Of a stretch of 45,162 nucleotides of DNA, positions 14,388-38,345 are shown one piece after another. Under the pieces are notes generated by a model, which was given only the letters and a program-made list of their open reading frames with translations, had not been told where the DNA came from and did no database searches. The stretch covers positions 9,884-55,045 of the forward strand of contig PLKS01000267.1 of NCBI GenBank assembly GCA_003140665.1, read 5' to 3'. Source of the DNA: Opitutaceae bacterium (GTDB taxonomy: Bacteria > Verrucomicrobiota > Verrucomicrobiia > Opitutales > Opitutaceae). Numbering within the stretch: the first letter of the stretch is position 1; each line of letters begins with the position of its first letter. The position numbers were made by a program, and so were the translations under genes.

Positions 14388-15740
14388 ATGTTTGAATCCC
14401 TGACAGACAAACTCTCCTCCGCGCTGCGAAACCTGCGCGGGGTGGGCAAGCTTTCCGACGAGAACATGGCGGCTGCGCTGGGCGAGATCCGGACCGCGCT
14501 CCTCGCAGCCGACGTCCATTTCAGGGTCGCCCGGGAGTTCGTCGAGCGGGTGCAGGCCCAGTGCGCGGGCCAGGAGGTGCTGAAGGGCGTCACCCCGGGC
14601 CAGCAGATCGTAAAGATCATCCATGACGAGCTCGTCCGCCTGCTCGGCGAGGGCGCGACGGCGCTGAGCGCGGCGCGCCCGCTGAAGATCATGCTCGTGG
14701 GACTCCACGGCTCGGGAAAGACGACCTCGGCAGCGAAGCTGGGCCGCCTCCTCAAGAAGCGTGGATACCGGCCCTTCGCCGTCGCCTGCGACGTGTACCG
14801 GCCCGCCGCCATCGACCAGCTTGAGATCCTGGCCCGCCAGGAGGAGCTCGGCTTCTACGCCGACCGCGCGTCAAGGGACGTCCCGGCGATCGGCCGGGCC
14901 GGCCTGGACGCGGCCATGGCGGCGGGAGCCGACGCCATCCTGTTCGACACCGCAGGCCGGCTCCAGATTGACGAGGGGCTCATCGACGAGGTCAGGCGCC
15001 TCGGCGACGCGACGAAGCCGGACGAGGTGCTCCTCGTGGCGGACGGCGCGCTGGGACAGGAGGCCGTCAACGTCGCCAAGGTCTTTCATGACGCGCTCCA
15101 GCTCACCGGGCTCATCATGACCAAGCTCGACGGTGACGCGCGCGGGGGCGCGGCGCTCTCGATCAAGGCCATAACGGGCACTCCCATCAAGTTCATCGGG
15201 ACGGGCGAAAAAACCGACGACTTCGACGCCTTCTACCCCGACCGGCTCGCCTCGCGCATCCTGGGGATGGGCGACGTGGTCTCCCTGGTCGAAAAGGCCC
15301 AGGAATCAATCGACGGGGCCGAGGCGGAGCGGATGGCCGAGAAGATGCGCAAGGCCGATTTCAACCTCGAGGACTTCCTGGCGCAGATGCAGCAGGTGAA
15401 GAAGATGGGCTCGATGCAGAGCATCGTCGGCATGCTGCCGGGTATGAGCGGCGTTCAGCTCGGCGACGACGCGGAGCTTCAGATGGCCCGCACCGAGGCG
15501 ATCATCCGGTCGATGACGATCCAGGAGCGCCGCAAACCCGAGGTGCTGAATGGGAGCCGCAGGCAGCGAATCGCCAAGGGGGCGGGGGTGAAGATTGCCG
15601 ATGTCAACCAGGTCGTGAAGCAGTTCCAGCAGATGCAGAAGATGATGAAGATGATGAAGATGATGAAGGGCGGCGGCGGGAAGAAGATGATGCGCCAGAT
15701 GGAGGCGATGCGGGGCAAGGGCGGCTTCCCGGGGATGTGA
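14388..15740 (+). CDS. ffh: Signal recognition particle protein Ffh (SRP54)
   Basis: Binds SRP RNA and signal sequences at the ribosome and targets inner-membrane proteins to FtsY. The 450-residue protein has an N domain, a GTPase (P-loop [48 protein letters not shown]), and a Met-rich M domain ([20 protein letters not shown]). The C-terminal tail has three direct repeats of ATGATGAAG around 15641-15667 and ends GKGGFPGM. Homologues of the last 38 codons (from 15624) recur at three places downstream, so this tail looks like an integration target. It is convergent with the RiPP cluster. Confidence 0.97.
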
Positions 15741-15771: not shown

Positions 15772-16671
15772 TCACGCGATCCGATTCAGTGCCGGCCGGC
15801 CCTCTCGAGCCGTCCGCAGGCTGAGCAACACGATTTCCGCGACCAAGGCCTCGTCGATGAAGGACAGGAGGAGGCGGAGGCTCAGCAGATGCATGAACCG
15901 GTGGGCCAGGATTTCATTGACCGGCCGGTCAGGGGTGGACCGCACCGTGAGGGGGAGGGGGTTGCGACAAAGGACGACCTCAAGCCGCTCGGCCTCCTTC
16001 CGAAAACGCCGCGCCATCGGTCGCAGCTGGCCGCGGAGCCTGTGCTCGAGGGCCCGCAGTTTCTCCGGGTTGAAGGCCGTCCGGGCGACCTTCGCGATCG
16101 CCCGGTAACGATCGGCGCCACGTTCCGGGTCGCCGCCGACCCCGATCCGGATGAACCGATCCCGAAACACCTTCACGGTCTCCGTGGGGCTAAGCGAGAG
16201 GCCGGGCCCCAACGCCCTGACGAGTTGGCGCTGCAGAATGACTGCCAGGGCTATCCGCGTCTCCCGGTCTGTCCACCGTGGATCGAGGACGGCCGAGGCC
16301 GCCTCGCTCGAGATCCACCAGATGGTTTCGCAGGCAGGAAGGCTCTTTCGTCCAAACTTCTTTACCTGGGGTTCGTAAGGGGCGGAGGACCCATCGCCCA
16401 GCACCGATCCCAGGTGCCTTATCAGGCCCTCCCGGGAGCCCCGCCGGACGAGGATGCTCCACTTCAGAACCAGATTTTTCCCTGTGGGGAGAACGAGGTA
16501 ATGCCACTTTCTCGCGAATCCGCCCGCCAGGGCGCCATGCGACGCCTGCCGCACCGCCTGCAGTCTTTGCACCCAGTCACCGGCGCGGCAGGGAAAATCG
16601 AAACGCAACCATTGCGCCTGATTGGGCCGAGGCCGGATATCCCCCAAGGAGTTCGGGTCGGCCGTCTTCAC
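15772..16671 (-). CDS. Stand-alone SpaB_C / thiopeptide-type biosynthesis domain protein, diverged paralogue
   Basis: A 299-residue protein related to the C-terminal elimination domain of class I lanthipeptide dehydratases (thiopeptide-type bacteriocin biosynthesis domain). Family-like features are QWLRFDFPCRAGDWVQRLQ at the N-terminus, a KWHYLVLPTGKNLVLKWSI region, and PACETIWWISSEAASAVLD. It is a paralogue of the protein at 17333-18226, but the usual YxxExxRYGG box has become YEPQVKKFGRK, suggesting a changed role. GTG 16671 is chosen for the strong GGAGG seven bases upstream; upstream ATG 16692 and TTG 16707 are alternatives. It is the last gene of the minus-strand RiPP cluster and converges on ffh. 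Confidence 0.62.
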   Translation of the reverse strand: MKTADPNSLGDIRPRPNQAQWLRFDFPCRAGDWVQRLQAVRQASHGALAGGFARKWHYLVLPTGKNLVLKWSILVRRGSREGLIRHLGSVLGDGSSAPYEPQVKKFGRKSLPACETIWWISSEAASAVLDPRWTDRETRIALAVILQRQLVRALGPGLSLSPTETVKVFRDRFIRIGVGGDPERGADRYRAIAKVARTAFNPEKLRALEHRLRGQLRPMARRFRKEAERLEVVLCRNPLPLTVRSTPDRPVNEILAHRFMHLLSLRLLLSFIDEALVAEIVLLSLRTAREGRPALNRIA

Positions 16672-16740
16672 GGAATTGCCTCCGCGAAGCATTCCTCGAC
16701 ACTCCAAGTGCCTTCGTACTAAAGAAATTGGATCTTCAGA

Positions 16741-16914
16741 TTACACCGCGGTTAGGAGGCAACAATGGGCGCTGGTTCCCGGCACCCCTCCCGTGCGGGC
16801 GAGATCCGTCTTGATCGATGAATTGAAGACACCCCCAGCCGGGTTCTTCCTTGCCTTTAGGTCCTTTAGTTTCGCAGCGGCTTTGGCTCTCACTGCTTTC
16901 TTGGGCTTTGTCAT
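16741..16914 (-). CDS. RiPP precursor-like peptide B (57 aa)
   Basis: A 57-residue peptide. The leader is Lys/Ala-rich and nearly identical to peptide A over residues 10-38: AKAAAKLKDLKA, KNPAGGVFN, SIKTDL. Two Gly-Gly pairs occur, at 27-28 and 42-43. After the second GG the candidate core is VPGTSAHCCLLTAV, with Thr, Ser, two Cys and Thr that a LanB-type system could modify. This core bears no resemblance to that of peptide A. It lies directly between peptide A and a SpaB_C-like gene on the same strand, and has no clear Shine-Dalgarno. Precursor status is inferred from leader conservation, core variability, size and position. Confidence 0.7.
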   Translation of the reverse strand: MTKPKKAVRAKAAAKLKDLKARKNPAGGVFNSSIKTDLARTGGVPGTSAHCCLLTAV

Positions 16915-16961
16915 GGTTTTGATCTTACTATCGTACGACGCGGGGTGAATTCTTGGGACGC

Positions 16962-16999
16962 TCCCGATCGGGCTGTTTTTTCCGACGGCCCAATCGGGA
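16962..16999 (-). other. Hairpin between the two precursor genes
   Basis: Arms TCCCGATCGGGC (16962-16973) and GCCCAATCGGGA (16988-16999) form a 12-bp stem with one G-U pair in the minus-strand transcript and a 14-base loop. It lies in the 123-bp gap between precursor A and precursor B. No T-run follows it, so partial termination or mRNA-end stabilisation is more likely than full termination. Function not shown. Confidence 0.45.
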
Positions 17000-17037
17000 A
17001 TGAGATCGAAGCTTCGACATTCCTTCGTCCAGGGGAG

Positions 17038-17211
17038 CTAGCAATCGTTGGTGTAAATATTCACAGGGACGACTTTTTGGAAAACGCTTCCACCAGTAAG
17101 GTCCGTCTTGATCGAGGGATTGAAGACACCGCCAGCCGGGTTCTTCCCGGCCTTGAGATCCTTCAGTTTCGCGGCGGCCTTGGCTTTCGGGACTTTCTTG
17201 GACTTCGACAT
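17038..17211 (-). CDS. RiPP precursor-like peptide A (57 aa)
   Basis: A 57-residue peptide from ATG 17211 (MSKSKKVPKAKAAAKLKDLK). The leader contains KLKDLKAGKNPAGG and SIKTDL, shared with peptide B. Gly-Gly pairs occur at 27-28 and 40-41. After the second pair the candidate core is SVFQKVVPVNIYTNDC, beginning with Ser and ending with Cys. Ser/Thr plus a terminal Cys are suitable for dehydration and ring closure. The frame is open 12 codons further upstream, but the conserved leader begins at this ATG. It is downstream of one SpaB_C-like gene and upstream of peptide B, all on the minus strand. Confidence 0.72.
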   Translation of the reverse strand: MSKSKKVPKAKAAAKLKDLKAGKNPAGGVFNPSIKTDLTGGSVFQKVVPVNIYTNDC

Positions 17212-17332
17212 AGAATTTGATTCTGCGAGACAGTTGCTGATCTCCAATTGAGGATGGCATCAATAACCTAAGGGGGTCAATCCGCATTTCGCAACTCACT
17301 TGAAATATCATAGCTCATTTCCCGTAAATAAG

Positions 17333-18226
17333 TTATTTTGAAATTACCCTATGCTTTTTCGCTCGCTTACGGGAACGATCGCTGAGGAGGAGCATGGCTT
17401 CCGCGATGAGCGATTCATCGAGGTTCCGGATGCGAAGGCGATTGTTGAGCATGTGGATCAGGCTTTGCACGATCCGCGCGGACCACTCCTGATCGGTTTC
17501 GTCATCTGACCGAAACCGTGGATGGAGGTGCCGACGGACCCGCTTGAGCTGAATGGCCGCCGCAAGGAATTGCCGGGGCTTCGGTTGGAGCGCCGTCATC
17601 AGATCCTTTTCGAAGGCAATCAGCGGGCCGAGATGGAAACCTTCTTGGGCCAGCCTGCGGATCCTCTGCGTGAGGTAATCCAAGCGCTTCAGATCCGTCT
17701 TGGCCTCCCGCCGAAGCCAGGATTCACGCACCGTCTCGAGTACGGGCGGCTGACGGAGAGCCAAGCCCCGTGCGAGCTCGCCGAGCATGAAGCGCTGCAG
17801 GATGATCGCGAGCACCAGACGCGAAGGGTAGCTCCACTTCCGGATCTCCAGGACTTCCGACGCGATTTCACTCGAGATCCAGAAGATCGACTCGCAGTGA
17901 ACCAGCGCCTGGCGTCCGCCGTAGCGCTCCGTTTCCGCGACGTAGGACACAGGCCGTCGGATCAGGACTCGGGGTCTCACCGACCGAAGGAACGCGTGGC
18001 GTCGGGCCGAGGACACCTGGATGCGCCATCGCAGCATGGTCCCCTGGCCTTCATCGAGGAACACGTAGAACCACTTGCTCGCCAGCCCCTCGGCCAGTGC
18101 CTCGTGCGAGGCGGCACGCACGGCGCGGAGCACGCGGCGCCAGGAATTGCCGTCGACTGGGATGTAGTACGACAGCCAGCCCTGGTCGTGACGGGAGAAA
18201 CGGCTTAGTTTGCGGGCGCGGCCCAT
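17333..18226 (-). CDS. Stand-alone SpaB_C / thiopeptide-type biosynthesis domain protein
   Basis: A 297-residue protein resembling the glutamate-elimination domain of class I lanthipeptide and thiopeptide dehydratases. It shows the N-terminal GWLSYYIPVDGNSWRRVL and SKWFYVFLDEGQGTMLRWRI, where the family usually has a W-F-x-R-Y-x-D-P-x-x-H-L-R-R-like stretch. The box SYVAETERYGGRQALVHCES then matches the family's ExxRYGG motif, followed by IFWISSEIASEVLE. ATG 18226 starts 7 bp after the LanB stop codon with GGAAG ten bases upstream; an in-frame start at 18265 would overlap lanB. Adjacency to a LanB glutamylation-domain gene supports a split dehydratase. Confidence 0.68.
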   Translation of the reverse strand: MGRARKLSRFSRHDQGWLSYYIPVDGNSWRRVLRAVRAASHEALAEGLASKWFYVFLDEGQGTMLRWRIQVSSARRHAFLRSVRPRVLIRRPVSYVAETERYGGRQALVHCESIFWISSEIASEVLEIRKWSYPSRLVLAIILQRFMLGELARGLALRQPPVLETVRESWLRREAKTDLKRLDYLTQRIRRLAQEGFHLGPLIAFEKDLMTALQPKPRQFLAAAIQLKRVRRHLHPRFRSDDETDQEWSARIVQSLIHMLNNRLRIRNLDESLIAEAMLLLSDRSRKRAKKHRVISK

Positions 18227-18233
18227 GGCGGCA

Positions 18234-20762
18234 TCACTTCCAGTTGAGAACAATCTCGGAGACATGACGACCTGATCTGAAGTCGAGGTTGCCGCCGCAG
18301 GAAGGCAACGCTTCGACGATCCGCACGCCGTCGGCAGCCTTGTCCACGATCCGTTCCCATTGGAGGAGGAAGAGGGCGGAATCGAAGCGATGGTAGACTG
18401 GCTTGTAATCGTCCCGCCGCCGCTGGCGCGCGGGCCCTCCCACCGCGGGCTGATCCTTGGGGACCGGGTCAGGATTCAGGCGAACAAACACCTCAGAGGG
18501 AAGCCCCTCGGCCTGCGCCCAGTCCAGCGTCGCGGCAAAGAACTCCGGCAGCGTCTCGCCCTTGCGGCGGGGTCGCAGGTCGGCCGCGGCAAAGTGCCAG
18601 GCCGCGCGGGCAATCACAATCATCTGGTCGAGCACGATCCTCGGCGCGTGGCGGCCGAAGCATTCCTCCGCCAGTTCCGGAACCGAACCGGAGGAGCCGC
18701 CCGCATGGCCGAGGCGGGTCAGCAGCTCGTAGACGGGGGAATGCCCGCCGAGCCCCTGGAAACCCATGTCGATTGGGAGGATGAACTTGCCCAGACGCGG
18801 GCAGAAGAGCCGGGGCCCGCCTTCTGGTCTCAACCGGAGCTCGAGGTCGGCGATCCGAATCACGCCGCCGCTGAACCCGGCAGGCGCGCGGGGAGAGAGC
18901 AGCACGATATTCCGGGTGAAGATCGGGTGGAGGTTCACGTTGGACCCGCTCCAGTCGATGAGCTCCGCATGGAAGGTCTCCCCGTCCGGGTCGGCCAGCG
19001 TCTCCCCGATCCAGAGTTGGACGCGGGGCGGCAATAGGCTGCAAAACCGGCTCCACAGCCTGACCGGTCCCCGCGCAACCTCCGAGTTGAGGACGAGGCG
19101 GGACCCTTCCCCCTCGCCCACCGGCTGCACGAGACAGGTGTGCCACGGGGGGACTCCGGCCGGGCGGCCCTCCGACGGAGGAAAGTCTCGCGAAGCCAAG
19201 TGGAGCTCCCCCCGGCGCCGGGTCGGATCTGAAGCCTGCGCGCCGCGGGCGCGGAGCAGTGCGGCGCGCAGCCACCGCACGCCGGGCGACGTTTCGCGGG
19301 CCGCCTTCACGGTGGCCGTCTCCGCCGGCTTCCACTGGCGAAGATACTCGAGGAAGGGAATGCCGCCGGCTTCCGCGCGGGCGCGCACGGCCTCCGAAAG
19401 CTCCAGGCTCGGGTCCACTGGGGCCGCCATCGCCGCGCCCAACCGCCCCAGGGCTTGGCAGACCTCCGCATGGCGGCGCAGGAGAATGGGCGCATCGAGG
19501 CGCACCCCGAGGTCTTCGAACAGCAGGCTCTCCCGGCGCAGCGGAGCAGGCGGCTTGGACTCCGGCGCAGCGGCGGGCGCCAGCGAAAGCAGGGCGCCGT
19601 AGCCATGGGCAATCGCATCCAGCTGGGACCGCCGCCGGCCGGGTTCGACCGACACCGGCTCCGCTTGGGTCGACGCCAGGCACCGGAGCGCATCCTGCAG
19701 GCGCGCCAACTCCGCCCCGAGCATGTCCCCGTCCCGATGAAATGAGCCCACAAAGTTGAGCCACGCCCCGATCCAGTCGGCATCCATGGCGTGCGCCGGG
19801 GGAAGGCTGACCAGGATGCCCCGCGCCACCAGTTCACTCATCAATCCCGGCACTTCGGCCGCCCGGATCCGGAGCAGGCGCCTTACCAGGGGCGCCGCCT
19901 GGTCCGACGCAAATTCGCCGGCCGCCTGGAGGCGCCGGAGCAGCCGCGCCTGTGGGCCGGAAAGCCGCAGGTCCTCGATCGATCCCTTCCCGACGGTCGT
20001 GATGTACGAGACGTCTTGCTCTAGCCTCCACACAAACATCGGGTTGACTGCCAGCAGGGTGCCCTGCCCCAACGAAGGGAGGCTCCCCCGCAGCGCCTCG
20101 AGATGCTCGAGGATCTGGACATTGAGTCTCGCGACCGAGGCAGGCTCCGAAATGGGACTTAGGGAGACGCCGCCGGGCGCCGGGGTCGCCTCCAGGCAGC
20201 ACACCCCCGTGAACCGGCTGAAGGGCGAGATCTTCATCGCGAACCGCGTCCAGTAGCGAAGGAAGGCCATGTCGCGCTGCGCGTCGGGCCCTTCCGCTTC
20301 GTCCCAGGCCTCGAGCCGGTCGCTGAGCGAGATGCTCGACATCAAGAGCGACAGCCGGAAATCCAAGTTCCCCCGGCACAACTCGCGGAGCGAGTTCCTC
20401 CCCTCCGCAAGCGCCGCGAGGAAGGCGGCGGACCGTTGCTCCCCCGCCTCGCGGACTGTCCCCTGGCAGGCGGCAACCCGGTGCGCCTCCGGCGAAGGGT
20501 CCGCCGACAGGCCGGACCGGTGCCGGATCACGCGGCGCAGACGGATCAGGCGCCGCCGCATTTCGGGATCCGCCTCGGAGCCGATCCGGCGCTCGAGCGA
20601 GCGATCCTCGGTTTCGGCCTGATCGTCGAGCGCCCGAACCGCGGCGCGGTGGGCGCCGCAGGCCGCCACCAGTCCGGGTGAAGCCAGCCGGGCAACGGTC
20701 CGTGAGTCTCCCATCGCCACCCGGGCAAGGGCGAAGGTCGGTGGTTCAGGGCTCCGTGTCAT
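18234..20762 (-). CDS. LanB-type dehydratase, glutamylation domain (split lantibiotic/thiopeptide dehydratase)
   Basis: An 842-residue protein of the lantibiotic dehydratase N-terminal family, which uses glutamyl-tRNA to activate Ser/Thr in a precursor peptide. Recognisable features are LRELCRGNLDFRLSLLMSS near residue 120 and the hallmark RYWTRFAMKISPFSRFTGVC, equivalent to the R-x-x-P-F-G-x-F-A-G box. Later motifs are SGSNVNLHPIFTRNIVLLSP and GKFILPIDMGFQGLGGHSPV. The C-terminus has no elimination domain; that function appears to be supplied by the adjacent stand-alone SpaB_C-like protein, as in thiopeptide clusters. ATG 20762 is preferred; the open frame extends to 20900 without family similarity. 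A peptide aminoacyl-tRNA ligase (PEARL) role is an alternative. Confidence 0.75.
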   Translation of the reverse strand: MTRSPEPPTFALARVAMGDSRTVARLASPGLVAACGAHRAAVRALDDQAETEDRSLERRIGSEADPEMRRRLIRLRRVIRHRSGLSADPSPEAHRVAACQGTVREAGEQRSAAFLAALAEGRNSLRELCRGNLDFRLSLLMSSISLSDRLEAWDEAEGPDAQRDMAFLRYWTRFAMKISPFSRFTGVCCLEATPAPGGVSLSPISEPASVARLNVQILEHLEALRGSLPSLGQGTLLAVNPMFVWRLEQDVSYITTVGKGSIEDLRLSGPQARLLRRLQAAGEFASDQAAPLVRRLLRIRAAEVPGLMSELVARGILVSLPPAHAMDADWIGAWLNFVGSFHRDGDMLGAELARLQDALRCLASTQAEPVSVEPGRRRSQLDAIAHGYGALLSLAPAAAPESKPPAPLRRESLLFEDLGVRLDAPILLRRHAEVCQALGRLGAAMAAPVDPSLELSEAVRARAEAGGIPFLEYLRQWKPAETATVKAARETSPGVRWLRAALLRARGAQASDPTRRRGELHLASRDFPPSEGRPAGVPPWHTCLVQPVGEGEGSRLVLNSEVARGPVRLWSRFCSLLPPRVQLWIGETLADPDGETFHAELIDWSGSNVNLHPIFTRNIVLLSPRAPAGFSGGVIRIADLELRLRPEGGPRLFCPRLGKFILPIDMGFQGLGGHSPVYELLTRLGHAGGSSGSVPELAEECFGRHAPRIVLDQMIVIARAAWHFAAADLRPRRKGETLPEFFAATLDWAQAEGLPSEVFVRLNPDPVPKDQPAVGGPARQRRRDDYKPVYHRFDSALFLLQWERIVDKAADGVRIVEALPSCGGNLDFRSGRHVSEIVLNWK

Positions 20763-20970: not shown

Positions 20971-23262
20971 TTACTCGGAGCGCAGCGCCACGATCGGGTC
21001 GACCCCGGACGCGCGCCATGCCGGAATCCAGCAGGCGACCGCGGCCACCGCCGACACCAAGGCTCCGCTGCCGAACAGGTAGAATCCGTTGAGGGGATCG
21101 ACCCCCCAGACGGCCGCCCGCAACCCGGCGCCCAAGGCCAGCGCCGCGGCCGCGCCGAGCCCCACGCCTCCGCCGACCCACCCCAATCCCTGGCGCAGGA
21201 CCAGCCGGAGGATGCGGCCCCGCTCGGCGCCCACCGCCACGCGGATGCCGATTTCGCGCGTCCGCTGAAGCACCCAATAGGACAGGGTGCCGTAGAGGCC
21301 AACCGCGACCAATCCCAGCGCCGCGGCCATGAAAAAGTCCACGATGTTGGCCACCGCGCGGTCCGGCTGGGCGCCGTCCTCCACGATTCGCCGCAGGGTT
21401 CGGAGGCGCGACATCGGCAGGTCGCGGTCGAGCGCCGCCAGTTCGCGGCGCAGGAGAGGGGCCAGCCGGGAGGCCGGTTGCGAGGACCGGACGACCAGGA
21501 AGATGGTCTGGCTCCAGGCATGGTCCAGTGTCCAGTACATCTCGGGTGCGGCCGTCTCCTTGGGCCCCCACTGGCGGACATCCTCCACCACGCCGACCAC
21601 CTGGGCGTGGTAATAGGGCGTGGGAGAGTTGCTCCGAATGACCTTCCCGAGGGGATCCTGACCCGGCCAGCACTTCTCCGCCAGTGCCCGATTGACCACG
21701 ACGCCGAAGCCATCCTTACCGGCGTCACCCGCCTCAAGCGTGCGCCCGCGGAGGAGGCGGATCCCGGCAGCGGCAAAATACCCGGGGCTTATACTGGAGA
21801 TCTCGGCCCTCGGGAGGTCGGCCTTGGGGTCGAACACCTCCCGATTGACGAGGAGGGTGGAGTTGGTCCCGCCCTCGAGAGGAAGCTTCGAGGTGATGCC
21901 CGCGGCCGTGACGCCCGGGAGGGAGGCGGAACGCTCGGCCAGCTGCGCCGCCAAGCGCAGGCGGTCCTCCAGCTGGTCGTACCGGCCGCCGTGCAGGTCG
22001 ACCTCGCCCGAGAGCACGAAATCGGAGGCGAGGCCCTGGTTGGCCGCCAGCACCTTCAGGTAGCTGGCCGAGAACAGCACCGCCAGGTTGGCCAGGACGA
22101 AGGCGACCGCCGCTTGGGCGATCACGAGGGCGCGGAGGAGCCGCTGGCGGCGCCCGGAACCCGCCACGCTGCGGCTTTCGCCGCGGGAGGCCTCGGCCAT
22201 CGAGAGGCGGGAAGTGGCGAGGATCGCGGGCAGGCCGGAGAGCAGGGCCGTGGCCAGCGTCGCCGCCACGGCGAAGGCCAGGACGTGGCCGTCAACGGCC
22301 ATCGCTGACCTTCGGGTGTCCGTGGTCTGCGTCAGGGCCGAAAGTATCCGGGTCCCCGCCACCGCGAGAACGACCCCCGCCGCCGAGCCCCCCAGGGAAA
22401 GCGCCAGGCTTTCAGCGAGGATCAGGCGCCCGATCTGGTGGCGCAAGGCGCCAAGCGCCACCCGGAGGCCAAACTCACCCTGGCGCATGGCATTGCGCGC
22501 GAGCAGCATGCTGGCGACGTTGGCGCAGGCGACCAGGAGCACCAGGATCACCGCCCCGAAAAGCATCCACATCTGCGCGCCGACAAAGCGGGTCATCTCC
22601 CCCTTCATCGAGCGCACGAGGAAAGTCGTGTTGGAATTGGTTTCCGGGAATTCCGCCGCCAGCCGGGCGCTGATCGCCTTCACCTCGGCGTCGGCGGTGG
22701 CGATCGCAATCCAGTCCTTCAGGCGGCCGACACACGCCAACCATCCGTCGGCCCGGCTCCCGTCCCGCATCAGACGGAGCGGCGTCCAGATCTCGCAGTC
22801 CGTGCCCCGATACCAGGGCGAGGCAAACTCGAATCCGGCCGGCATGACCCCGACGATCGTCGTGCCCACCCCGTCAATCGGGACGACGCGGCCGACGACG
22901 CCCGGATCAGCCGCGAAGGCCCGGCGCCACAGGCCGTTGCTGATCACCGCCACCGCGGGCGCACCCGCGGCCTCGTCGGACGTTTCGAGGATGCGGCCCG
23001 CCGCCGGGGCGACTCCGAAGGCCCGTAGGACCCCCGCAGTGCAGCGCGCCCCACGCACCGCCTGGGAGTTGTCGCCCCCGAGGTTGGTTTGGTTGGGGGT
23101 ATAGGCACCCAGTTCCCGGAACGAGGAGGCCTGCTCCTTGATATCCAGGAAATCCAAGGGAGAGGCGGAACGGTCCTCTCCCGGCCACATCTGGACCACC
23201 TGGCCTTGGTTGGGATAGGAAAAGGGTTGGAGCACGAGCGCGCGGAGCGCGCTGTACATCAA
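20971..23262 (-). CDS. ADOP/MacB-FtsX-type permease, truncated at the 5' end
   Basis: A 763-codon frame of the duplicated orphan permease type (MacB_PCD periplasmic domain plus FtsX domain, twice). Visible parts are a periplasmic domain (VVQMWPGEDRSASPLDFLD; GVMPAGFEFASPWYRG), FtsX 1 (GAVILVLLVACANVASMLLA), a middle segment, a second periplasmic domain (AEISSISPGYFAAAGIRLLR), and FtsX 2 (GTLSYWVLQRTREIGIRVAV) ending DPIVALRSE. Full-length relatives start with a cytoplasmic stretch and first TM before a VLLRPLPYP-like box; here that box (LVLQPFSYP) is at residue ~10. About 40-50 residues are therefore missing. The break coincides with the left edge of repeat copy 1. The product may be non-functional. 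No partner ATPase is present. Confidence 0.75.
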   Translation of the reverse strand: MMYSALRALVLQPFSYPNQGQVVQMWPGEDRSASPLDFLDIKEQASSFRELGAYTPNQTNLGGDNSQAVRGARCTAGVLRAFGVAPAAGRILETSDEAAGAPAVAVISNGLWRRAFAADPGVVGRVVPIDGVGTTIVGVMPAGFEFASPWYRGTDCEIWTPLRLMRDGSRADGWLACVGRLKDWIAIATADAEVKAISARLAAEFPETNSNTTFLVRSMKGEMTRFVGAQMWMLFGAVILVLLVACANVASMLLARNAMRQGEFGLRVALGALRHQIGRLILAESLALSLGGSAAGVVLAVAGTRILSALTQTTDTRRSAMAVDGHVLAFAVAATLATALLSGLPAILATSRLSMAEASRGESRSVAGSGRRQRLLRALVIAQAAVAFVLANLAVLFSASYLKVLAANQGLASDFVLSGEVDLHGGRYDQLEDRLRLAAQLAERSASLPGVTAAGITSKLPLEGGTNSTLLVNREVFDPKADLPRAEISSISPGYFAAAGIRLLRGRTLEAGDAGKDGFGVVVNRALAEKCWPGQDPLGKVIRSNSPTPYYHAQVVGVVEDVRQWGPKETAAPEMYWTLDHAWSQTIFLVVRSSQPASRLAPLLRRELAALDRDLPMSRLRTLRRIVEDGAQPDRAVANIVDFFMAAALGLVAVGLYGTLSYWVLQRTREIGIRVAVGAERGRILRLVLRQGLGWVGGGVGLGAAAALALGAGLRAAVWGVDPLNGFYLFGSGALVSAVAAVACWIPAWRASGVDPIVALRSE

Positions 23263-23470
23263 AAACGTACGCTCCGACCGCTGCCAAAAGTTGCCATTAT
23301 AAATCTAACTGCCAGCAGCGAATCTCAATAGCGGACTAACGTAACCCGTTAACCTGTGATATTTCGAGCAGATGCAGAAGGTCATGCGTATGATGAAGGG
23401 TGGAAACCAAAAGAAGATAATGCGCCAGATGGAGGCGATGAAGGGAAAGGGCGGCTTTCCGGGGATGTGA
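23260..23470 (+). repeat. ffh-tail repeat, copy 1
   Basis: The left part (23260-23362) contains the 13-mer TTGCCATTATAAA at 23291, CTCAAT at +33 and CCTGT at +62. Exactly 72 bp after the 13-mer start it runs into an ffh 3' tail (23363-23470): F-E-Q-M-Q-K, then [22 protein letters not shown] and TGA. The tail is open for 35 codons, so it is the best preserved of the three. Its left edge cuts the permease gene. Confidence 0.85.
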
Positions 23471-23589: not shown

Positions 23590-24003
23590 CTAATTGCCGG
23601 GATGAAGGAGTGCCAGCGGCTTGTTTCCGAACCGACGATAGATCGTAAAATGCTCCGAATCGGTCGTGATCACCGTCGCTCGAGGAAATATTTCGGACAG
23701 TCGCACGACTGCCGCATCGCAAAAATCCATCTGCGGATACTTGGCCGAGAGAGCACGTAGGTGGGGCATGTGCTCGGGCAAGAGATCCACCACCCGTAGC
23801 GCACCGGCGTCCACCAGGCCGTAAAGCTGATCCACGGCCGAGCGCGACCGGGCCAGTTGCCAAGCAGCCTCAGCAATCACTGCTTCGCAGGTGATCAGCG
23901 GCGGTGCAAGCGCCTCCAAGACGCCCGCACTCCAGGCGTGCCACTGGTCGCGCGAGTTAATCCAGCCGACAAGGGGACCCGTGTCCGTTATATGCTCAGC
24001 CAC
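23590..24003 (-). CDS. PIN-domain toxin (VapC-like)
   Basis: A 137-residue PIN-domain protein, likely a sequence-specific ribonuclease toxin. The acidic residues expected of the fold are visible: ITDTGPLVGWIN at the N-terminus, TCEAVIAEAAWQLA, MDFCDAAVVRLSE, and VITTDSEHFTIYRRFG. GTG 24003 overlaps the antitoxin stop codon (GTGGCTGA), the usual tight coupling of such pairs. The frame is open to 24075, but that stretch lies inside the antitoxin gene. It ends 119 bp from repeat copy 1. Confidence 0.82.
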   Translation of the reverse strand: MAEHITDTGPLVGWINSRDQWHAWSAGVLEALAPPLITCEAVIAEAAWQLARSRSAVDQLYGLVDAGALRVVDLLPEHMPHLRALSAKYPQMDFCDAAVVRLSEIFPRATVITTDSEHFTIYRRFGNKPLALLHPGN

Positions 24004-24211
24004 CGAAACCTTCCCGCGACGAAAGGTCGCGAGGACCGGCATAAACGCCCTTGGCGTGCGCGGCGAGTTCGCCAAAGGTGTGAGTCGGCTTGGCGGTCAG
24101 CAGGAACCGCTCGCCTGACTTGCCGTCGACGATCTCGACGGCCTGTCCCTTTCGGGCCGCGGCCTTGGCCTTGGGAAACTCGCGCATCAGCGAACGTGTA
24201 GAAAGTTTCAT
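23996..24211 (-). CDS. Phd/YefM-type antitoxin
   Basis: A 71-residue protein from ATG 24211 (MKLSTRSLMREFPKAKAAAR). The N-terminus resembles Phd/YefM folds: helix REFPKAKAAARKGQ, then strands AVEIVDGKSGERFLLTAK. The C-terminal part (THTFGELAAHAKGVYAG) would be the toxin-binding tail. It overlaps the PIN toxin gene by 8 bp. A palindrome sits just upstream of the start, consistent with autoregulation by the complex. Confidence 0.75.
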   Translation of the reverse strand: MKLSTRSLMREFPKAKAAARKGQAVEIVDGKSGERFLLTAKPTHTFGELAAHAKGVYAGPRDLSSREGFGG

Positions 24212-24214
24212 ATC

Positions 24215-24227
24215 TGACACCCTGTCA
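24215..24227 (-). promoter_or_regulatory. Candidate operator of the toxin-antitoxin operon
   Basis: Inverted repeat TGACA-CCC-TGTCA lies 3 bp upstream of the antitoxin ATG. The position is typical for autorepression by antitoxin-toxin complexes. Inferred from symmetry and position only. Confidence 0.45.
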
Positions 24228-24291
24228 TACACCCCAAGACTGTCAAGGCGCTGTCCGCACTGCGGCGACGCCGACCGGGCCCAGGAGTTAC

Positions 24292-24467
24292 TAAAATAAG
24301 TATGCTCTGACCGTTGCCAAATGTTGCCATTATAAACCTAAATGCCACCCGCGCATCTCAATTGCGGGCTATCATAACCCGTTCGCCTGTGATATCTGCA
24401 GCAGATGCAGAAGATGATGCGCCAGCTCGAGGCCATGAAGGGCAAGGGCGGGTTCCCTGGGATGTGA
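24292..24467 (+). repeat. ffh-tail repeat, copy 2
   Basis: The left part carries TTGCCATTATAAA at 24324, CTCAAT at +33 and CCTGT at +62. At +72 it enters an ffh tail (24396-24467): L-Q-Q-M-Q-K-M-M-R-Q-L-E-A-M, then KGKGGFPGM and TGA. Compared with ffh, 15 codons covering the Met/Lys/Gly repeats are deleted in frame. It sits between the toxin-antitoxin pair and the NHL protein gene. Confidence 0.85.
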
Positions 24468-27067: not shown

Positions 27068-28315
27068 TTAGGCGTCGAGAACCATGTCGGCCTTCGGCGT
27101 CGCCACGCATGTAAAGCACGTGCCGGGTTCCGGTGGGGATCCGGGCGGCTGCACGTAGGACACTTCGCCCTTCTGGAAGGCAACGACGCATGTGCCGCAA
27201 TTTCCGGCGCGGCAACCCGAAGGGATGGGAATTCCGGCCTCCTCCGCCAGCTCGAGCAGGTTGGCGCAGGCCCCCGTCCAATCCACCTGCTTGCCCGAAC
27301 GCTTGAAGGTGATCGCAAATTTCTTATCGATCGGCATCGGGGGCCGGGTGACGGCTCCCAGTCTCTTGACGCTCGACGGGCCGAATGTCTCGAAATGGAT
27401 CCGACTCTCCGGAACCCCCCAGGCCCCGAGTTCCAGGGTCAGGCCCTCCATCATCGCCCCCGGCCCACACATGTAGAAGTCGAAGTTGTTCGAGGGCAGG
27501 TACCCCTTCATGAAATCGGTCGATACGCGACCGGGCGCGTCGTAGTGCTCGCCGACTACGTCGTCGTCCTTGGGCCGGCTGTAGCAGACAACGAGGTGCA
27601 CGTTCGGATTCTCGAGGCCGATCGTGCGCAGGGTATCGCGCATGATGTGGTCCCCGCTGTTGCGGACTGAGTAGAAGAACCAGATGTCGCGACGGGACCT
27701 CCGCTCGACCAGCGTGTGCAGCATGCTCAGCATGGGCGTCACCCCGATTCCGCCGCCAATCAGGACGATCCCGCCCTCGCCCGCCGGATCGAGGAAAAAA
27801 TGGCCGCCGGGCGCCTTCACGTCGACGATGTCGCCCTCGTGGACGCCATCGTGGAGGTAATTCGACCCCACGCCGGGCGTGGAGCCGTCGGCGGCGGGCA
27901 CCCGCTTAACCGTTATGCGGTAATAGTCGTTCCTGGGCCTGTCCGAGAGGCTGTAGCAACGAATGACGGGCTTGGATTGTCCCGGCGGGCGCAGCTGGAA
28001 GGTGAGGTACTGTCCCGGTATGAATTCCGGAAGCGCCTTTCCATCGTGCGGGATGAGATAGATTGAGCACAGGTCCTCGGCCTCCGTGACCTTGCGCTTT
28101 ACGACGAACTTCCTGAGCCCGTTCCACGGGAGCGATGACCGGCTTCGCAGCAGCCGCATGTCGCGTTCCCCCTGAAGGCGGTTTCGCAGGAGGGCGAGCT
28201 CTAGGTCGTGGCGCTTCCCCTCAAACTTGTCCCGCTTTAGCTGCCGGACGAGCGCTGCCCCCGCTCCCGTGGCGGTGACGGCGATAAGGCATGAACCCAG
28301 AATCTCCAGGATCAT
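27068..28315 (-). CDS. Membrane-anchored FAD/NAD(P) reductase with C-terminal [2Fe-2S] ferredoxin domain
   Basis: A 415-residue flavo-iron-sulfur reductase. It has an N-terminal TM (ILGSCLIAVTATGAGAALV), a charged linker, an FAD-binding domain (PGQYLTFQLRPPG; RCYSLSDRPRNDYYRITVKR), an NAD(P)-binding domain (IVLIGGGIGVTPMLSMLHTL; FYMCGPGAMM), and a plant-type [2Fe-2S] domain. In the last, C368-x4-C373-x2-C376 are followed by C400 or C403. The layout resembles Hmp/NqrF-like reductases with a terminal ferredoxin. It likely passes electrons between NAD(P)H and membrane carriers. It is 7 bp downstream of the beta-barrel gene and belongs to the minus-strand half of the cytochrome cluster. Confidence 0.85.
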   Translation of the reverse strand: MILEILGSCLIAVTATGAGAALVRQLKRDKFEGKRHDLELALLRNRLQGERDMRLLRSRSSLPWNGLRKFVVKRKVTEAEDLCSIYLIPHDGKALPEFIPGQYLTFQLRPPGQSKPVIRCYSLSDRPRNDYYRITVKRVPAADGSTPGVGSNYLHDGVHEGDIVDVKAPGGHFFLDPAGEGGIVLIGGGIGVTPMLSMLHTLVERRSRRDIWFFYSVRNSGDHIMRDTLRTIGLENPNVHLVVCYSRPKDDDVVGEHYDAPGRVSTDFMKGYLPSNNFDFYMCGPGAMMEGLTLELGAWGVPESRIHFETFGPSSVKRLGAVTRPPMPIDKKFAITFKRSGKQVDWTGACANLLELAEEAGIPIPSGCRAGNCGTCVVAFQKGEVSYVQPPGSPPEPGTCFTCVATPKADMVLDA

Positions 28316-28322
28316 TGGACCC

Positions 28323-29789
28323 TCAGAATTTGGCCTCTAGCTCCGAACGCAACCCGTAACTCTTGTCCACGTTTTCCTGGGCCCCGATGAACCCGCCGAA
28401 GATCAGGATCAAATGGCGGCCCATGGCCTGCTGCCAGTTGGCGCCCAGCGCCACCGTCGACTCCCCGGGGCCCTTTGTGTCCGTGCGGGCCCCCAGCTCG
28501 ACGACGAGCTGGTGGCGGCGCTTGGCAAAGTACATCTGGTAGCCGATCGCCGTGCCAATCGTATTGGATGACGCGTTGCTGACAGCCGCCCCGTAACTTC
28601 CGACTCCCACGTTCGCAAAGAGAAGTCCCACCTGGCCAAGAGGGCCTCCGACATCGGGGTCGCGCGCGGCTGAGGAGAAACGGTCGATGCCGACGAACGT
28701 GTCCAGGTAGACGAGGTTATCGGTGTGCGCCGGCGAGTATGAGAGCTGGTTGAAGAGAAGGGTTCCGGTGCTCACCGCGTCCGACTGCTTGTCGATTGCC
28801 TGGGAGGTGACCACCCGCGCCGTGAAGTTAACGAGCTCAAAGCGGCGGGTCATCCCTATGCCGGCATAGAGGCCGTCGCCTCCCGACCGGTCGGGTGCCG
28901 TCACATAGAGGACGTCGAAGTCGACCGTGCTGTCGACGTAGTCAAACGACGAATTGAGCCCGAACATGTGCGCGTCGTCGGCCTTGATGTTGTCGCCCCT
29001 GTCGATGTTGTTCCATGCGTAGAGGGCGGTCACGTGCGCGGCGTTTGAACCGAACAGGAACAGGGACGAGTGGGTGATGCCGATGGCGTCCATCGTGTCG
29101 TTTACCAACAGGCCGTCCTGCAGGAGGAAATTCTGGCGGCCGATGGCGAAGCCGTAGTCCAGGCTCTTCACGTCGTTGGGATCGAGATTCTTGAAAATCT
29201 GGCCGAAGTCGCCCTCGAAGAAGCCGGTGGTCAGCTTTCCGTTGAGCCCGTTCACCCAGTTCCCGTCTCCCGGCTTGAACCTGTAGCCGCTGGACACGCC
29301 GTCGACTGCCTGTCCCTCAGTGTCGAAGGGCCGGAAGCCGACGAGGATGCGCTCTGTCGGCGTCAAATACAGGTTGCCAAAGAGGTCCATGCGGTTGGCC
29401 CACTCGGTCGTCTGGCCCGTGCCCGAGTCGAACGTCTGGAGGGCCGTGAGCACGTCCCCGTAAACGATGAAGACCGGCTGCCAAACGGCCCCGGTCGGCA
29501 TCACGAATCCCGGCGCGATGTACCCGTTGCCCAGGAACGGGTTTTGCCCGATCTCGATAAGGGGAGCGGGGCGGGCGGGGAACGTCCCGGGGGACAGGGG
29601 CGTCGGCTGGTCGGAGTAGCGGCTTGTGTCGACGCTGTTGCTTGTATCGACGCTGCTGTCCGCGCGCGATCCCGTGACCAAGGTGCACGCAATCCCGAGG
29701 GCAAGGATTGGCCGCACGCACGCGCCCAGCCATCCCCGTTTCTTCGGCTTAAGCGCGGCGACCCGCGTCCTAGGTGTTCCTCGTGGCAT
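28323..29789 (-). CDS. Outer-membrane beta-barrel protein of the cytochrome cluster
   Basis: A 488-residue exported protein (hydrophobic segment ILALGIACTLVTGS, then a Ser/Asp-rich mature start with a repeated SVDTSNSVDTS). The body is built of alternating amphipathic strands (ERILVGFRPFDTEGQAVDGV; KSLDYGFAIGRQNFLLQDGL; HQLVVELGARTDTKG) and ends in Phe (LRSELEAKF), typical of outer-membrane barrels. No named family is certain. It lies between the pentaheme cytochrome gene and the reductase gene on one strand. A porin partner in a porin-cytochrome conduit is an inference from this position. Confidence 0.7.
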   Translation of the reverse strand: MPRGTPRTRVAALKPKKRGWLGACVRPILALGIACTLVTGSRADSSVDTSNSVDTSRYSDQPTPLSPGTFPARPAPLIEIGQNPFLGNGYIAPGFVMPTGAVWQPVFIVYGDVLTALQTFDSGTGQTTEWANRMDLFGNLYLTPTERILVGFRPFDTEGQAVDGVSSGYRFKPGDGNWVNGLNGKLTTGFFEGDFGQIFKNLDPNDVKSLDYGFAIGRQNFLLQDGLLVNDTMDAIGITHSSLFLFGSNAAHVTALYAWNNIDRGDNIKADDAHMFGLNSSFDYVDSTVDFDVLYVTAPDRSGGDGLYAGIGMTRRFELVNFTARVVTSQAIDKQSDAVSTGTLLFNQLSYSPAHTDNLVYLDTFVGIDRFSSAARDPDVGGPLGQVGLLFANVGVGSYGAAVSNASSNTIGTAIGYQMYFAKRRHQLVVELGARTDTKGPGESTVALGANWQQAMGRHLILIFGGFIGAQENVDKSYGLRSELEAKF

Positions 29790-29801
29790 CCGGTAGGCCG
29801 G

Positions 29802-31850
29802 TCAGGGGAGCATCGCCACCTTGTGGTCCAGCGGGACGGCGGCCATTTGCGGGGGATCTTTCGGCAGGACGGGTCGCGGCGTCGGCGGCGCCATGATCTC
29901 GGCCTCGGTCGGCTTCCAGTCCAGATGCATCTGCGGGCCATCAAGCGTGACAGTCTTGTCCCAAAGGATCCGGGCCCCGCTGGCGACGCGATAGGCGACC
30001 TCGCGCGGCGACAGGCTGTAGTCAAAGCCGACGCCGGAGATGTCCCTCATCAGGTTAACCGGCACCATCTGCGAGATCATCTTCACCTCGACTTTGTACG
30101 GGGCAAATCCCGTCAGCTGGTCGGCGTCCACGTGGTATTCCGCCCAGCGCGAGCTGAGCGGCGGAAGGATGCGCGCCTGCTTGCGAGCCGAGAATGTCCG
30201 GGCCGCGAGGACGTGCGACCGGGTCTCCGGGCGCACGTAGGGCAGAGGATCGATGGAGTAGTCCGTCGCGAGGACCTGCACGCGCTCGCCCCCCCTGAGG
30301 CTTCGGGTGATGAACTCCGATTGGAGCGAGAAGAGCTGGTCGTCGAAGGGCCTCTCCAAATTGTGCACGTAGGCAGAATGAGTGTCCCTCACGTCCCCGT
30401 TGGGGTCCCGGTCACCGGATATGAAGACCTTCTTGCCGTTGGCGTCCGTGACGGTGACCTGGAGGAACACCAGGCGCTCGGCGTCAAAGCCGGTAGGCGT
30501 CCCATGCCCGTCGGTGTTGTTCGCAACCTCGATGCGGAAGTCCATGCCATGGAAGTCGTTCCTTGTGAGGTCGAACGTATGGAGCTGGTACCCGCGGCGC
30601 AGCAGCTGGTGACGCTGGATGTCGAGGTCGTTGAGGAGCTTCTTTTGCTCGTCGATGATCGCCCGGGCATCATAGCGGTCGTCGATCGCCTTCCAGCGCG
30701 GCGGGAAGACGTAGTTTGCGGGAACGTGGTTCTCGAAGGCGTCCGTGCCCCAGGCCGCCTGGTCGTCGAACGTGAGCCACTCGCGCATCGTGGCCAGCTT
30801 CTGGGCCTTCGTGTTGTGAGGGAAGAGGCCGGGATGGACGATCGAGTAGTCGGGGCCCGCAAACATGTGGTTCGTGCGGGCACGCGTCGGGGTCGGCACC
30901 CCGCCAATCAGGGCCGCCGGACCCTGCGCGAAGCCGGACGCGATGCCCGGCGTCACGCCCATGTGGCATTCCTGGCAAGTCGTGCCCTTCTTGTTGGCGG
31001 GCGAATTCTTGAACTGCGAGAACGCTTCCTCGAGGCGGAAGCCATTGAGGAGGTTGACGTCGTGGCAGCTCCCGCAGAATCCCGAGGTCGTGATGGGATC
31101 AAACTTGAACGCCTCGGTATGGATGGCCCGGCCATTCTGACCCTTGCTCGTCACGACCTTGTACTTATCCGGGTCGCCTAAGACCAGCTTGAGGACCGAG
31201 TCGTCCCTAGGCCCGTAGACCGGGGCGAAAAGGTCGCCCTCAGCGATGCTGGTGCGCCCGCTCACCTTTCCATAGTTATGGGTCACGCGATGGCAGACAA
31301 TGCAGGTGATTCCCTCCCTCGCCGTGGGCGAGCGATCCAGGTTGCTCATATAGACGGACTCCTTGATCTGCATGCCGACCTGGGTATGGCAGCGTATGCA
31401 AAAATCCCCGTTTGTCCCGGAGGTCGACTTCACGATGGTCGCCTGCATCGCGTTGAAAACCGGGCTGAGCTGGGCGTAAGCGTGCGAGGAGACCGACCAC
31501 TCCCGAAATTGGTCAGGATGGCATACCGCGCACGTCGTCGCCGAGGGGAACTTTCCCTCGGTGAACAGACGGGCGTGCTCGTCGGAAGCCTGCTGGGACG
31601 TCAGCTTCTTGGGAGCCTCGGCACCAGCGTTGGCCTTTGGGGCGGGGGCGACGGTCGCGTCACCCAGGTCGTCGTCGGATTTCGATGCCGCCGGAGCCGA
31701 TGCTGCGGGAACGGGGGTGTCACTCAGGTCGTCGTCTGTCTTTGCGGGCTTTGAATTGGTGTCGGCCGCCGCTCGCAATTCCTGGAAAGAGCCGCAGAGG
31801 GCAAGGCCCCCGACGACGCCCAAAAAAGGAAGAATATGGGTGCTTTTCAT
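29802..31850 (-). CDS. Exported pentaheme cytochrome c
   Basis: A 682-residue protein with signal peptide (MKSTHILPFLGVVGGLALCG). A low-complexity segment (residues ~36-80) has two DDDL(S/G)D motifs. Five CXXCH sites sit at residues 107, 151, 183, 259 and 292. The C-terminal ~380 residues lack heme motifs and contain a beta-rich region (FRIEVANNTDGHGTPTGFDA; LVFLQVTVTDANGKKVF) as in some multiheme oxidoreductase relatives. The start is fixed by AAGGAG six bases upstream of ATG 31850. It is divergent from the tetraheme gene and upstream of the barrel gene by 12 bp. Confidence 0.85.
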   Translation of the reverse strand: MKSTHILPFLGVVGGLALCGSFQELRAAADTNSKPAKTDDDLSDTPVPAASAPAASKSDDDLGDATVAPAPKANAGAEAPKKLTSQQASDEHARLFTEGKFPSATTCAVCHPDQFREWSVSSHAYAQLSPVFNAMQATIVKSTSGTNGDFCIRCHTQVGMQIKESVYMSNLDRSPTAREGITCIVCHRVTHNYGKVSGRTSIAEGDLFAPVYGPRDDSVLKLVLGDPDKYKVVTSKGQNGRAIHTEAFKFDPITTSGFCGSCHDVNLLNGFRLEEAFSQFKNSPANKKGTTCQECHMGVTPGIASGFAQGPAALIGGVPTPTRARTNHMFAGPDYSIVHPGLFPHNTKAQKLATMREWLTFDDQAAWGTDAFENHVPANYVFPPRWKAIDDRYDARAIIDEQKKLLNDLDIQRHQLLRRGYQLHTFDLTRNDFHGMDFRIEVANNTDGHGTPTGFDAERLVFLQVTVTDANGKKVFISGDRDPNGDVRDTHSAYVHNLERPFDDQLFSLQSEFITRSLRGGERVQVLATDYSIDPLPYVRPETRSHVLAARTFSARKQARILPPLSSRWAEYHVDADQLTGFAPYKVEVKMISQMVPVNLMRDISGVGFDYSLSPREVAYRVASGARILWDKTVTLDGPQMHLDWKPTEAEIMAPPTPRPVLPKDPPQMAAVPLDHKVAMLP

Positions 31851-32006
31851 GGCGAACTCCTTAAGCCAATGAATTGCGTGAACCTCTGTAGCAAAAAGAC
31901 GAACAAATTTTACGGATACGCGAATTTCTGACCGAAACGACTTTGGCCGATTGTGGCAAATATAGGCTTTAGAAACGCCTCCTCGACCAATATTCTTGAA
32001 AATACC

Positions 32007-33038: not shown

Positions 33039-33040
33039 TC

Positions 33041-35682: not shown

Positions 35683-35686
35683 CACA

Positions 35687-38126: not shown

Positions 38127-38345
38127 ACTGCCGTCCGGCACCTTTGCCCAACTTTGCCATTATAAACACAAATACCTGCATGGAGTCTCAATAGCATACT
38201 GTTGTAACCAATTAGCCTGTATGATCTTCGGTAGATGCAGAAAATGATGCGGATTATGTCGGGCGGCGGCTCAAGGAAGATGATGCGCCAGGCGGAGGCC
38301 ATGAATGCCAAGGGCATTTACTCGCGCTCGAAGCGCGCACGATGA
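38127..38345 (+). repeat. ffh-tail repeat, copy 3 (most decayed)
   Basis: TTGCCATTATAAA at 38154, CTCAAT at +33 and CCTGT at +62 are all kept. At +72 an ffh-like tail begins (38226-38345), with an internal TAG in place of a Gln codon, then MQKMMRIMSGGGSRKMMRQ and an altered end (AKGIYSRSKRAR) instead of GKGGFPGM. The left boundary is approximate. This copy is farthest from ffh. Confidence 0.78.

Follow-up and report, generated by a model that had tools for sequence, protein, structure and literature searches.

The five genes at 15772..20762 of the window (the whole 45,162-nucleotide stretch of DNA that was analysed) form what their sequences identify as a split-LanB RiPP cluster, in which LanB is joined by a partner that looks competent for elimination, by two precursors, and by another SpaB_C-like protein. 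Our preferred reading, to which we assign a probability of roughly 0.7, is that of a class-I-type cluster acting on two double-glycine-leader peptides that are exported by a shared exporter. The LanB protein would put glutamate from Glu-tRNA on Ser and Thr residues of the core peptides, and S1, the first of the two SpaB_C proteins, would eliminate this glutamate to give Dha or Dhb. The 28-residue leader would then be cut after its GG, and the product would leave via a C39-peptidase ABC exporter encoded on a different contig, C147. S2, the second SpaB_C protein, may work after or alongside elimination in a cyclase-like or substrate-holding role.

All five genes lie on the minus strand in the order LanB, S1, precursors A and B, S2, at the positions given in the initial annotation. 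The 842 aa split LanB (18234..20762) is overlapped by 32 bases by the gene for S1 (17333..18265, 310 aa). Precursor A (17038..17211, 57 aa) consists of a leader of 28 residues to the GG (17128..17211) and the core VFNPSIKTDLTGGSVFQKVVPVNIYTNDC plus stop codon (17038..17127), and precursor B (16741..16914, 57 aa) likewise of a 28-residue leader (16831..16914) and the core VFNSSIKTDLARTGGVPGTSAHCCLLTAV plus stop codon (16741..16830), with both core boundaries placed according to the leader family described below. S2 (15772..16707, 311 aa) has an uncertain start, which may be the TTG at 16707 or, five codons further in, an ATG. As the initial annotation had noted, there is no YcaO or LanC within the cluster; nor is a protease or a complete transporter seen there, which we counted against the preferred reading.

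The 842-aa LanB matches Pfam PF04738, Lant_dehydr_N (E 2.9e-18, 65.8 bits, cut-off 28), and the same Pfam search gave no match to PF14028 (SpaB_C) in this protein. Its residues Y170, R173, K177, and S179 have the same spacing as the NisB site residues Y80, R83, R87, and T89 (PMC4341554). Y170 and R173 are invariant, and R14 and K177 nearly invariant, in 14 sequences. The lysine that K177 places at the NisB R87 position was counted against the preferred reading. The best PDB matches of a LanB group profile were 6ec7 (1.8e-83) and the goadsporin protein 9jhq (7e-47). As predicted from these comparisons, the protein is the glutamylation half of a split dehydratase, having the NisB Y80/R83 site and no SpaB_C domain. 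The catalytic residues kept in both LanB and S1, together with the overlap of their genes, were counted in favor of the preferred reading.

S1 scores over the cut-offs for both PF14028 (8.1e-23) and TIGR03891 thiopep_ocin (8.2e-17), retains the equivalents of NisB R784, R786, R826, Y827, H961, and R966, and has an AlphaFold model (pLDDT 86.2) with a VIA Z of 20.6 to NisB; it is probably the glutamate eliminase. S2 also matches PF14028 (1.4e-8, 35.7 bits, cut-off 24.4) but falls under the TIGR03891 cut-off, and it has K, S, and K at the equivalents of R784, R786, and R826, with both elimination arginines (R786 and R826) gone; its HxxxxR motif still has the H and the R. The profile matches agree with the earlier assignment of the 842-aa protein to LanB and of two proteins of about 298 aa to SpaB_C. 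The nearest relative of S2 is S1 (33% identity, E 9e-36), and a tree built without pyridine synthases grouped the two with support of 100/100 on branches of very different length (S2 3.94, S1 1.16). A phmmer search with S1 or S2 as a single query found no solved SpaB_C protein. The structure comparison proposed at the outset recovered the SpaB_C fold for both proteins: among the PDB matches listed, the S1 and S2 models (the latter at pLDDT 83.6) reached Z scores of 17-21 only with NisB/MibB/MadB and the [4+2] aza-cyclases TbtD/PbtD/TsrL. We rejected fold as a means of telling an eliminase from a pyridine synthase: across these proteins the Z scores of S1 span about 4 and those of S2 about 3.

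The proposal that the cluster includes two small precursor peptides is supported by their codons. The DNA of the precursor B leader region is 83% identical to that of A over 113 nt. The first 38 codons of A and B differ at 20 nucleotides, 12 of them at third positions, and only 7 codons are non-synonymous where 13.4 are expected, a number as low as which was found in 0 of 5000 neutral draws. As such, these codons look translated and constrained. Both precursors begin with a 28-residue double-glycine leader (…KLKDLKxxKNPAGG), and the same leader heads 16 peptides on 12 contigs of this genome (A, B, and 14 others) and 9 peptides in three congeners, with none found in the 154 other genomes of the phylum sample. 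Of the 24 members that could be read, 22 have a leader of exactly 28 aa, three of these measured from an inner Met. Neither Pfam, searched with 2 members, nor NCBIfam, searched with 7, has a model for them, and no mention of the leader strings was found in the open-licence literature. Proteusin (NHLP) and Nif11 peptides offer a parallel, one leader family recurring beside several maturase types, but in those families a leader of 80-90 aa or more is common, compared with 28 aa here. The double-glycine leader boundary is also a feature of proteusins (PMC10858898).

The exporter on contig C147 has a C39 domain (2.4e-33) and two cNMP-binding stretches, is accompanied by HlyD, and adjoins four of the leader peptides. 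HetC of Nostoc has the same cNMP-binding, C39, and ABC architecture and is a precedent for a cNMP-domain peptidase exporter, one whose substrate is reported to be unidentified (PMC10986499); the C147 exporter, unlike HetC, stands beside four double-glycine-leader peptides. The leader is probably an export tag. That the exporter lies on a separate contig from the cluster was counted against the preferred reading.

Other kinds of enzyme adjoin the same leader. A LanL-like lyase-kinase with no cyclase is found next to a leader peptide with the core ...TCSTTPTCRT in this genome, and a radical-SAM protein next to one in a congener. For nine of this genome's 16 leader peptides no modifying enzyme is known nearby, as judged from one or two neighbours at seven of the nine. 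Since the three leader-bearing congeners have no SpaB_C, the leader alone does not imply LanB processing. We also considered leader position 16 as a mark of enzyme association, with L in 5 of 25 members including the 4 classed as enzyme-adjacent, but this was a post hoc observation, and because peptide L097:7707 beside the same radical-SAM gene has F at this position, it was given no weight. We tentatively suggest, as the less probable side of the question, that the leader (KDLK...PKGG) could be a genus-specific adaptor, with one cNMP-gated C39 exporter cutting and exporting all bearers while unrelated maturases (split LanB, cyclase-less LanL-like lyase-kinase, radical SAM) modify individual members, S2 being a duplicated eliminase independently turned into a new cyclase, and the genome dehydrating Ser/Thr in two ways without LanC. 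If several types of maturase and a single exporter do recognise the leader, nature would have provided a plug-and-play system, and orphan peptides could be searched for by means of it. The leader family, like the insertion hotspot discussed below, is additional to the first reading of the sequence.

Among the alternatives, a lanthipeptide whose single C-terminal ring forms spontaneously or through the action of S2 or of an unseen LanC is possible though doubtful. Class I lanthipeptide clusters (NisB/NisC) share the Glu-tRNA-type dehydratase domains and the (S/T)xxC motif, which is present in both cores here (TNDC at the end of A, SAHC in B), and the LanL-like enzyme in the same genome points in the same direction. 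However, by a rough estimate (S/T)xxC is near chance in such Ser/Thr-rich cores, and core A contains a single Cys. The present dehydratase is split, unlike those of class I clusters, and no LanC, LanT, or LanP is seen in the cluster. The 87%-complete assembly as a whole gave 0 matches to LanC (PF05147), which was counted against the preferred reading as well; its only YcaO-like frame, on contig C81, is divergent.

SpaB_C proteins are known both as eliminases and as pyridine-forming cyclases, and MroD has the SpaB_C fold. The initial annotation saw here the thiopeptide/pyritide arrangement, in which one SpaB_C protein eliminates glutamate and the other forms a pyridine. S2 would then be a [4+2] aza-cyclase joining two core Dha residues into a pyridine and ejecting the leader. 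The gene content does resemble that of the Micromonospora rosaria pyritide cluster, which shares two precursors, a split LanB pair, a third enzyme gene, and the lack of azole genes; its MroB, MroC, and MroD and two precursors without Cys are described in PMC9247985. S2 has no counterpart of R786 or R826, TbtD is likewise non-Arg at the R786 position, and the S2 model is 15-16% identical to TbtD and PbtD versus 10% to NisB. Its Z scores are nevertheless higher to MibB (20.4, at 18% identity) and NisB (19.4-19.5) than to TbtD (17.6-18.2) and PbtD (17.2-18.0). In contrast to the Micromonospora rosaria system, S2 is closest to S1, both cores contain Cys, and Ser spacing differs between the cores (core A has Ser at positions 5 and 14, core B at 4, 5, and 20). 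The double-glycine leader family implies proteolytic removal, and with some members beside a C39 exporter, a [4+2] cyclisation need not be invoked to remove the leader. The eliminase half of the earlier proposal is supported by the residues kept in S1, but kinship of S2 with the pyridine synthases is not favored: given its grouping with S1 in the tree without such synthases, a pyridine synthase S2 would be a separate invention, and we regard a pyritide product as unlikely. On our preferred reading, the five genes bring together an eliminase and a relative that has diverged fast, and they would allow one to test how a second function comes about.

A stranded, decaying island without product is a poorer explanation still. 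Upstream of LanB lies a 5'-truncated ADOP-family permease (20971..23262, minus strand; TIGR03434, 7e-208), whose link to the cluster is uncertain. Its profile match starts at position 36 of 803, and its frame begins at 23261, the edge of a repeat (23261..23470, plus strand) in which the 3' end of ffh (original at 15624-15740) is duplicated. The repeat is probably the distal boundary of an island holding the cluster; no report of ffh as an island site was among the matches listed from the open-licence literature. The truncated permease could mean that some of the island is in decay, which also counts against the preferred reading, and the long S2 branch and the finding of the cluster in one genome only likewise speak for this alternative, but all five frames are open, the A/B leaders look constrained, and the catalytic residues of S1 and LanB are kept.

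A PEARL-like LanB appending an amino acid to a peptide C-terminus is very improbable: it would suit a LanB without an elimination domain and the relative at locus L039, which has no SpaB_C and sits in an apparent NRPS/PKS cluster, but an intact-looking eliminase gene with its site kept overlaps LanB, and the remaining LanB relatives are split dehydratases.

A split dehydratase is also what its relatives favor. SpaB_C is present in 3 of 252 family genomes and 0 of 12 congeners, relatives of S1 were confined to its own genome among 387 genomes of the phylum, and the searches made turned up no closely related counterpart of the cluster as a whole, a point against the preferred reading. With few exceptions, the relatives found for LanB are actinobacterial split LanBs (25-41% identity in best segments), which in goadsporin-type and TbtB-type pairs likewise have adjacent, separate glutamylation and elimination genes. 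A contig scan with two patterns, taken from the alignment of the cluster LanB with a Streptomyces plasmid LanB and thus biased to actinobacteria, gave 39 GTDB loci, in 37 of which LanB is followed by one SpaB_C. The neighbourhood survey that had been called for recovered the adjacent pair repeatedly but no recognisable second SpaB_C in the 39 loci (ORFs of at least 100 aa in the fetched flanks; other scores E 0.3 or worse). L039 is the only non-actinobacterial LanB relative found; in 396 genomes of its phylum the LanB query met a single weak match, a piece interrupted by three stops (E 7.8e-4), and in 12 genomes behind loci one 47-position piece (E 0.004). Nothing on such a verrucomicrobial LanB cluster was found in the open-licence literature, PMC8692599 included. 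Three queries against viral sequences confirmed nothing. Plasmids gave no match for S1 or S2; LanB matched one Streptomyces record, the NBC_00316 plasmid, whose cluster differs from the present one in carrying TOMM-type genes and an ABC transporter of its own, and the island DNA had weak matches only, within the permease, to two Gemmatirosa records.

The five genes all lie on the minus strand at 15772-20762, where the initial annotation had placed them, and its domain assignments were borne out: LanB, the stand-alone glutamylation protein (18234-20762), matches Lant_dehydr_N and has no SpaB_C match, and the two stand-alone SpaB_C-like proteins, S1 (17333-18265) and S2 (15772-16707), both match Lant_dehydr_C above the cut-off, with S1 matching TIGR03891 as well. 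The reading frames of LanB and S1 share 32 bases. Precursors A and B are 57 aa apiece, and their DNA is 83% identical across the 113 nt counted from the start. Over 38 codons they differ at 20 nt, and most of these differences (12) are at third positions; the tails beyond look unrelated. Core A contains 2 Ser, 3 Thr, and 1 Cys, and core B contains 3 Ser, 4 Thr, and 2 Cys. A thioether formed at the (S/T)xxC common to both cores is possible, although a search of the assembly turned up no LanC.

A GTDB scan for LanB yielded 39 loci, 38 of them actinobacterial and one (L039) from a Pyrinomonadaceae MAG. One SpaB_C follows LanB in 37 of the 39, including L040, whose LanB is a fragment; at L015 the contig stops with LanB, and at L039 no SpaB_C was found by LanB. 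The L039 protein (L039:3489-6194) adjoins NRPS/PKS-like genes. When a profile of the aligned LanBs, which took in 12 of the 39 loci, was searched against the PDB, it retrieved 6ec7 (861 aa), presumably TbtB, at E 1.8e-83, along with the goadsporin protein 9jhq, MibB, MadB, and NisB. Y170 and R173 do not vary among the 14 aligned LanBs, R14 and K177 hardly vary, and the spacing of Y170/R173/K177/S179 is that of NisB Y80/R83/R87/T89. In NisB, Y80F abolishes dehydration and changes to R83 or R87 impair it (PMC4341554). LanB and S1 together would dehydrate Ser/Thr in cores A and B.

S1 and S2 share the SpaB_C fold and differ at some of the sites expected of an eliminase. In the S1/S2 profile search, counted along NisB, R784/R786, R826-Y827, and H961/R966 fall on conserved positions; in one alignment, S1 has R79, R81, R114-Y115, H271, and R276 at these sites and S2 has K, S, K-F, H273, and R278. 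Two of the alignments took in 16 and 13 of the 37 actinobacterial SpaB_Cs found. The predicted models, made with the plasmid copy left out, are confident except over the N-terminal 23-25 residues and, for S2, the five at the C-terminus. Against NisB/MibB/MadB the S1 model scores Z 20.0-20.6 (15-21% identity), and against TbtD/PbtD/TsrL it scores Z 17.0-18.1 (13-15%); the S2 model matches the same two sets at Z 18.9-20.4 (9-18%, MibB top) and Z 17.2-18.2 (14-16%), and unrelated structures reach Z 5.3 and 9.3 in the S1 and S2 comparisons. These matches between predicted and solved structures confirm the fold rather than the reaction.

A tree was built from 41 rows: S1, S2, the plasmid copy (entered twice), and the 37 actinobacterial proteins. 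In it, S1 and S2 stand apart from the remaining rows with full support, on branches of 1.16 for S1 versus 3.94 for S2, both flagged by the program as long rows of unsure placement and S1 also for composition. By BLAST the two are 33% identical (E 9e-36); among the proteins compared, the next best match of S1 is at E 1.5e-4 and S2 has no further match at E 1. Because of this closeness and the long S2 branch, S2 looks, from sequence comparison, like a duplicated, fast-changed eliminase, with cyclase, substrate holder, and regulator as its candidate roles. That S2 is instead the pyridine-forming enzyme of a pyritide pathway is possible but not favoured: the gene content and the arginines lost in S2 fit it (the first site of TbtD, H-L-R-I-Y, likewise lacks an R786 equivalent), and since the tree holds no pyridine synthase, S2 may yet group with these enzymes, but the closeness of S2 to S1, the unequal Ser spacing between the cores, their Cys content, and the GG leader speak against it.

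The precursors belong to a larger leader family. Searching with precursor B returned 12 places in its own genome, six in congeners G533, G534, and G542, which lack PF14028 (SpaB_C), and weak single matches in seven other family genomes. A 28-position profile built from 22 leaders has 16 members on 12 contigs of the window's genome (C22, C63, C116, C147 with four, C212, C220, C229, C232, C234, C238, C243 with two, and C248), four in G542, three in G533, and two in G534, and none in nine other congeners or 154 other genomes of the phylum sample; 22 of these 25 matches were in the profile itself and match by construction, so that C22, C232, and C238 are the new ones. The consensus is MASxKKKAxAKxxVKFKDLKSKKNPKGG, with A and B both having L16 and A26 in place of F and K. 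Of the 24 members that can be read, 22 have a leader of 28 residues ending at GG: 20 come from the earlier 22, three of these measured from an internal Met, and the other two are C238 and C22. C232 contains an N. The tails of the 22 leader peptides span 6 to 52 residues and differ in each member. A string, LNPQPLPP, is common to three tails (L090:8045-8191, L090:9569-9697, and L099:7830-7961), and no paper containing it was found in the open-licence literature.

Members of the family adjoin several kinds of maturation genes. On C147 (L090), four lie by genes for an HlyD protein, a methyltransferase, and an ABC exporter in which peptidase C39 is combined with cNMP-binding stretches, and resembling sets occur in G542 (by position and length) and in G534 and G533 (plus partial Pfam checks). 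Two four-peptide groups have unrelated tails, L096:7949-8942, which adjoins genes alike in length and order, and L090:7468-9892, which adjoins the cNMP-domain C39 exporter. Given that GG closes the leaders of this family and that a C39 exporter lies next to four members, cleavage after GG would be the simplest maturation; HetC sets a precedent for combining a cNMP domain with a peptidase exporter (PMC10986499). On C248 (L093:7849-9428), a leader peptide lies immediately 5' of a 476-aa LanL/LanKC-like lyase-kinase with RamC_N and kinase domains above cut-off; its below-cut-off LanL match spans only positions 6-459 of 851, hence a LanL-like protein without the cyclase part, and the contig ends about 200 bases past it. 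In G533 (L097), a radical SAM/SPASM protein is flanked by leader peptides; it matches the SPASM domain model above cut-off, and its best NCBIfam matches, below cut-offs, are ranthipeptide- and SCIFF-type maturases. For the peptides of C63, C116, C212, C220, C229, C22, and C238, the scan of one or two neighbouring genes apiece showed no maturase. Elsewhere in the assembly, C81 (L136) carries a divergent YcaO-like frame of 304 aa with a partial match just above cut-off.

The individual parts are of known kinds; their combination, a split LanB and an eliminase with a diverged relative, plus a short GG leader common to peptides beside other maturase types, was not found in the portions of the open-licence literature covered. 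PF14028 occurs in two genomes of a 387-genome phylum sample, in three of 252 family genomes, the window's own counted, and in none of 12 congeners; the other two family genomes carry it inside long frames (1072 and 1171 aa), leaving the window's genome as the only one of the three with stand-alone SpaB_C. From this distribution, the cluster was likely gained horizontally. The contig belongs to the genus, since its ffh resembles those of the congeners: ten have a complete or almost complete copy with 77-86% identity, and two further copies are partial, at 85% and 69%.

The cluster is bounded by the end of ffh (15637-15740) and a copy of its last 117 bases at 23363-23470, and the permease frame adjoining LanB begins at the repeat edge. 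A shorter ffh 3' copy (24409-24467) ends at 24467, and 38233-38315 is a 77% copy of ffh bases 1253-1335. A 1-kb cassette on the minus strand (23590-24232) holds a PIN-domain protein and a small partner gene, toxin-antitoxin-like, and recurs in the G542 array (L127:11196-11829) at 88-92% protein identity. In congeners, too, copies of the ffh 3' end follow the gene on its downstream side: four in G542, one each in G541 and G533, and a weaker one in G538. Because these copies and the cassette recur in congeners, the cluster seems to occupy an insertion hotspot made up of tandem cassettes, whose large ORFs were covered by Pfam scans. Farther along the window, the gene content of 27068-38053 suggests an electron-transfer cluster: it includes multihaem cytochromes, a protein of the ferredoxin reductase type, and a cNMP-binding/4Fe-4S protein.
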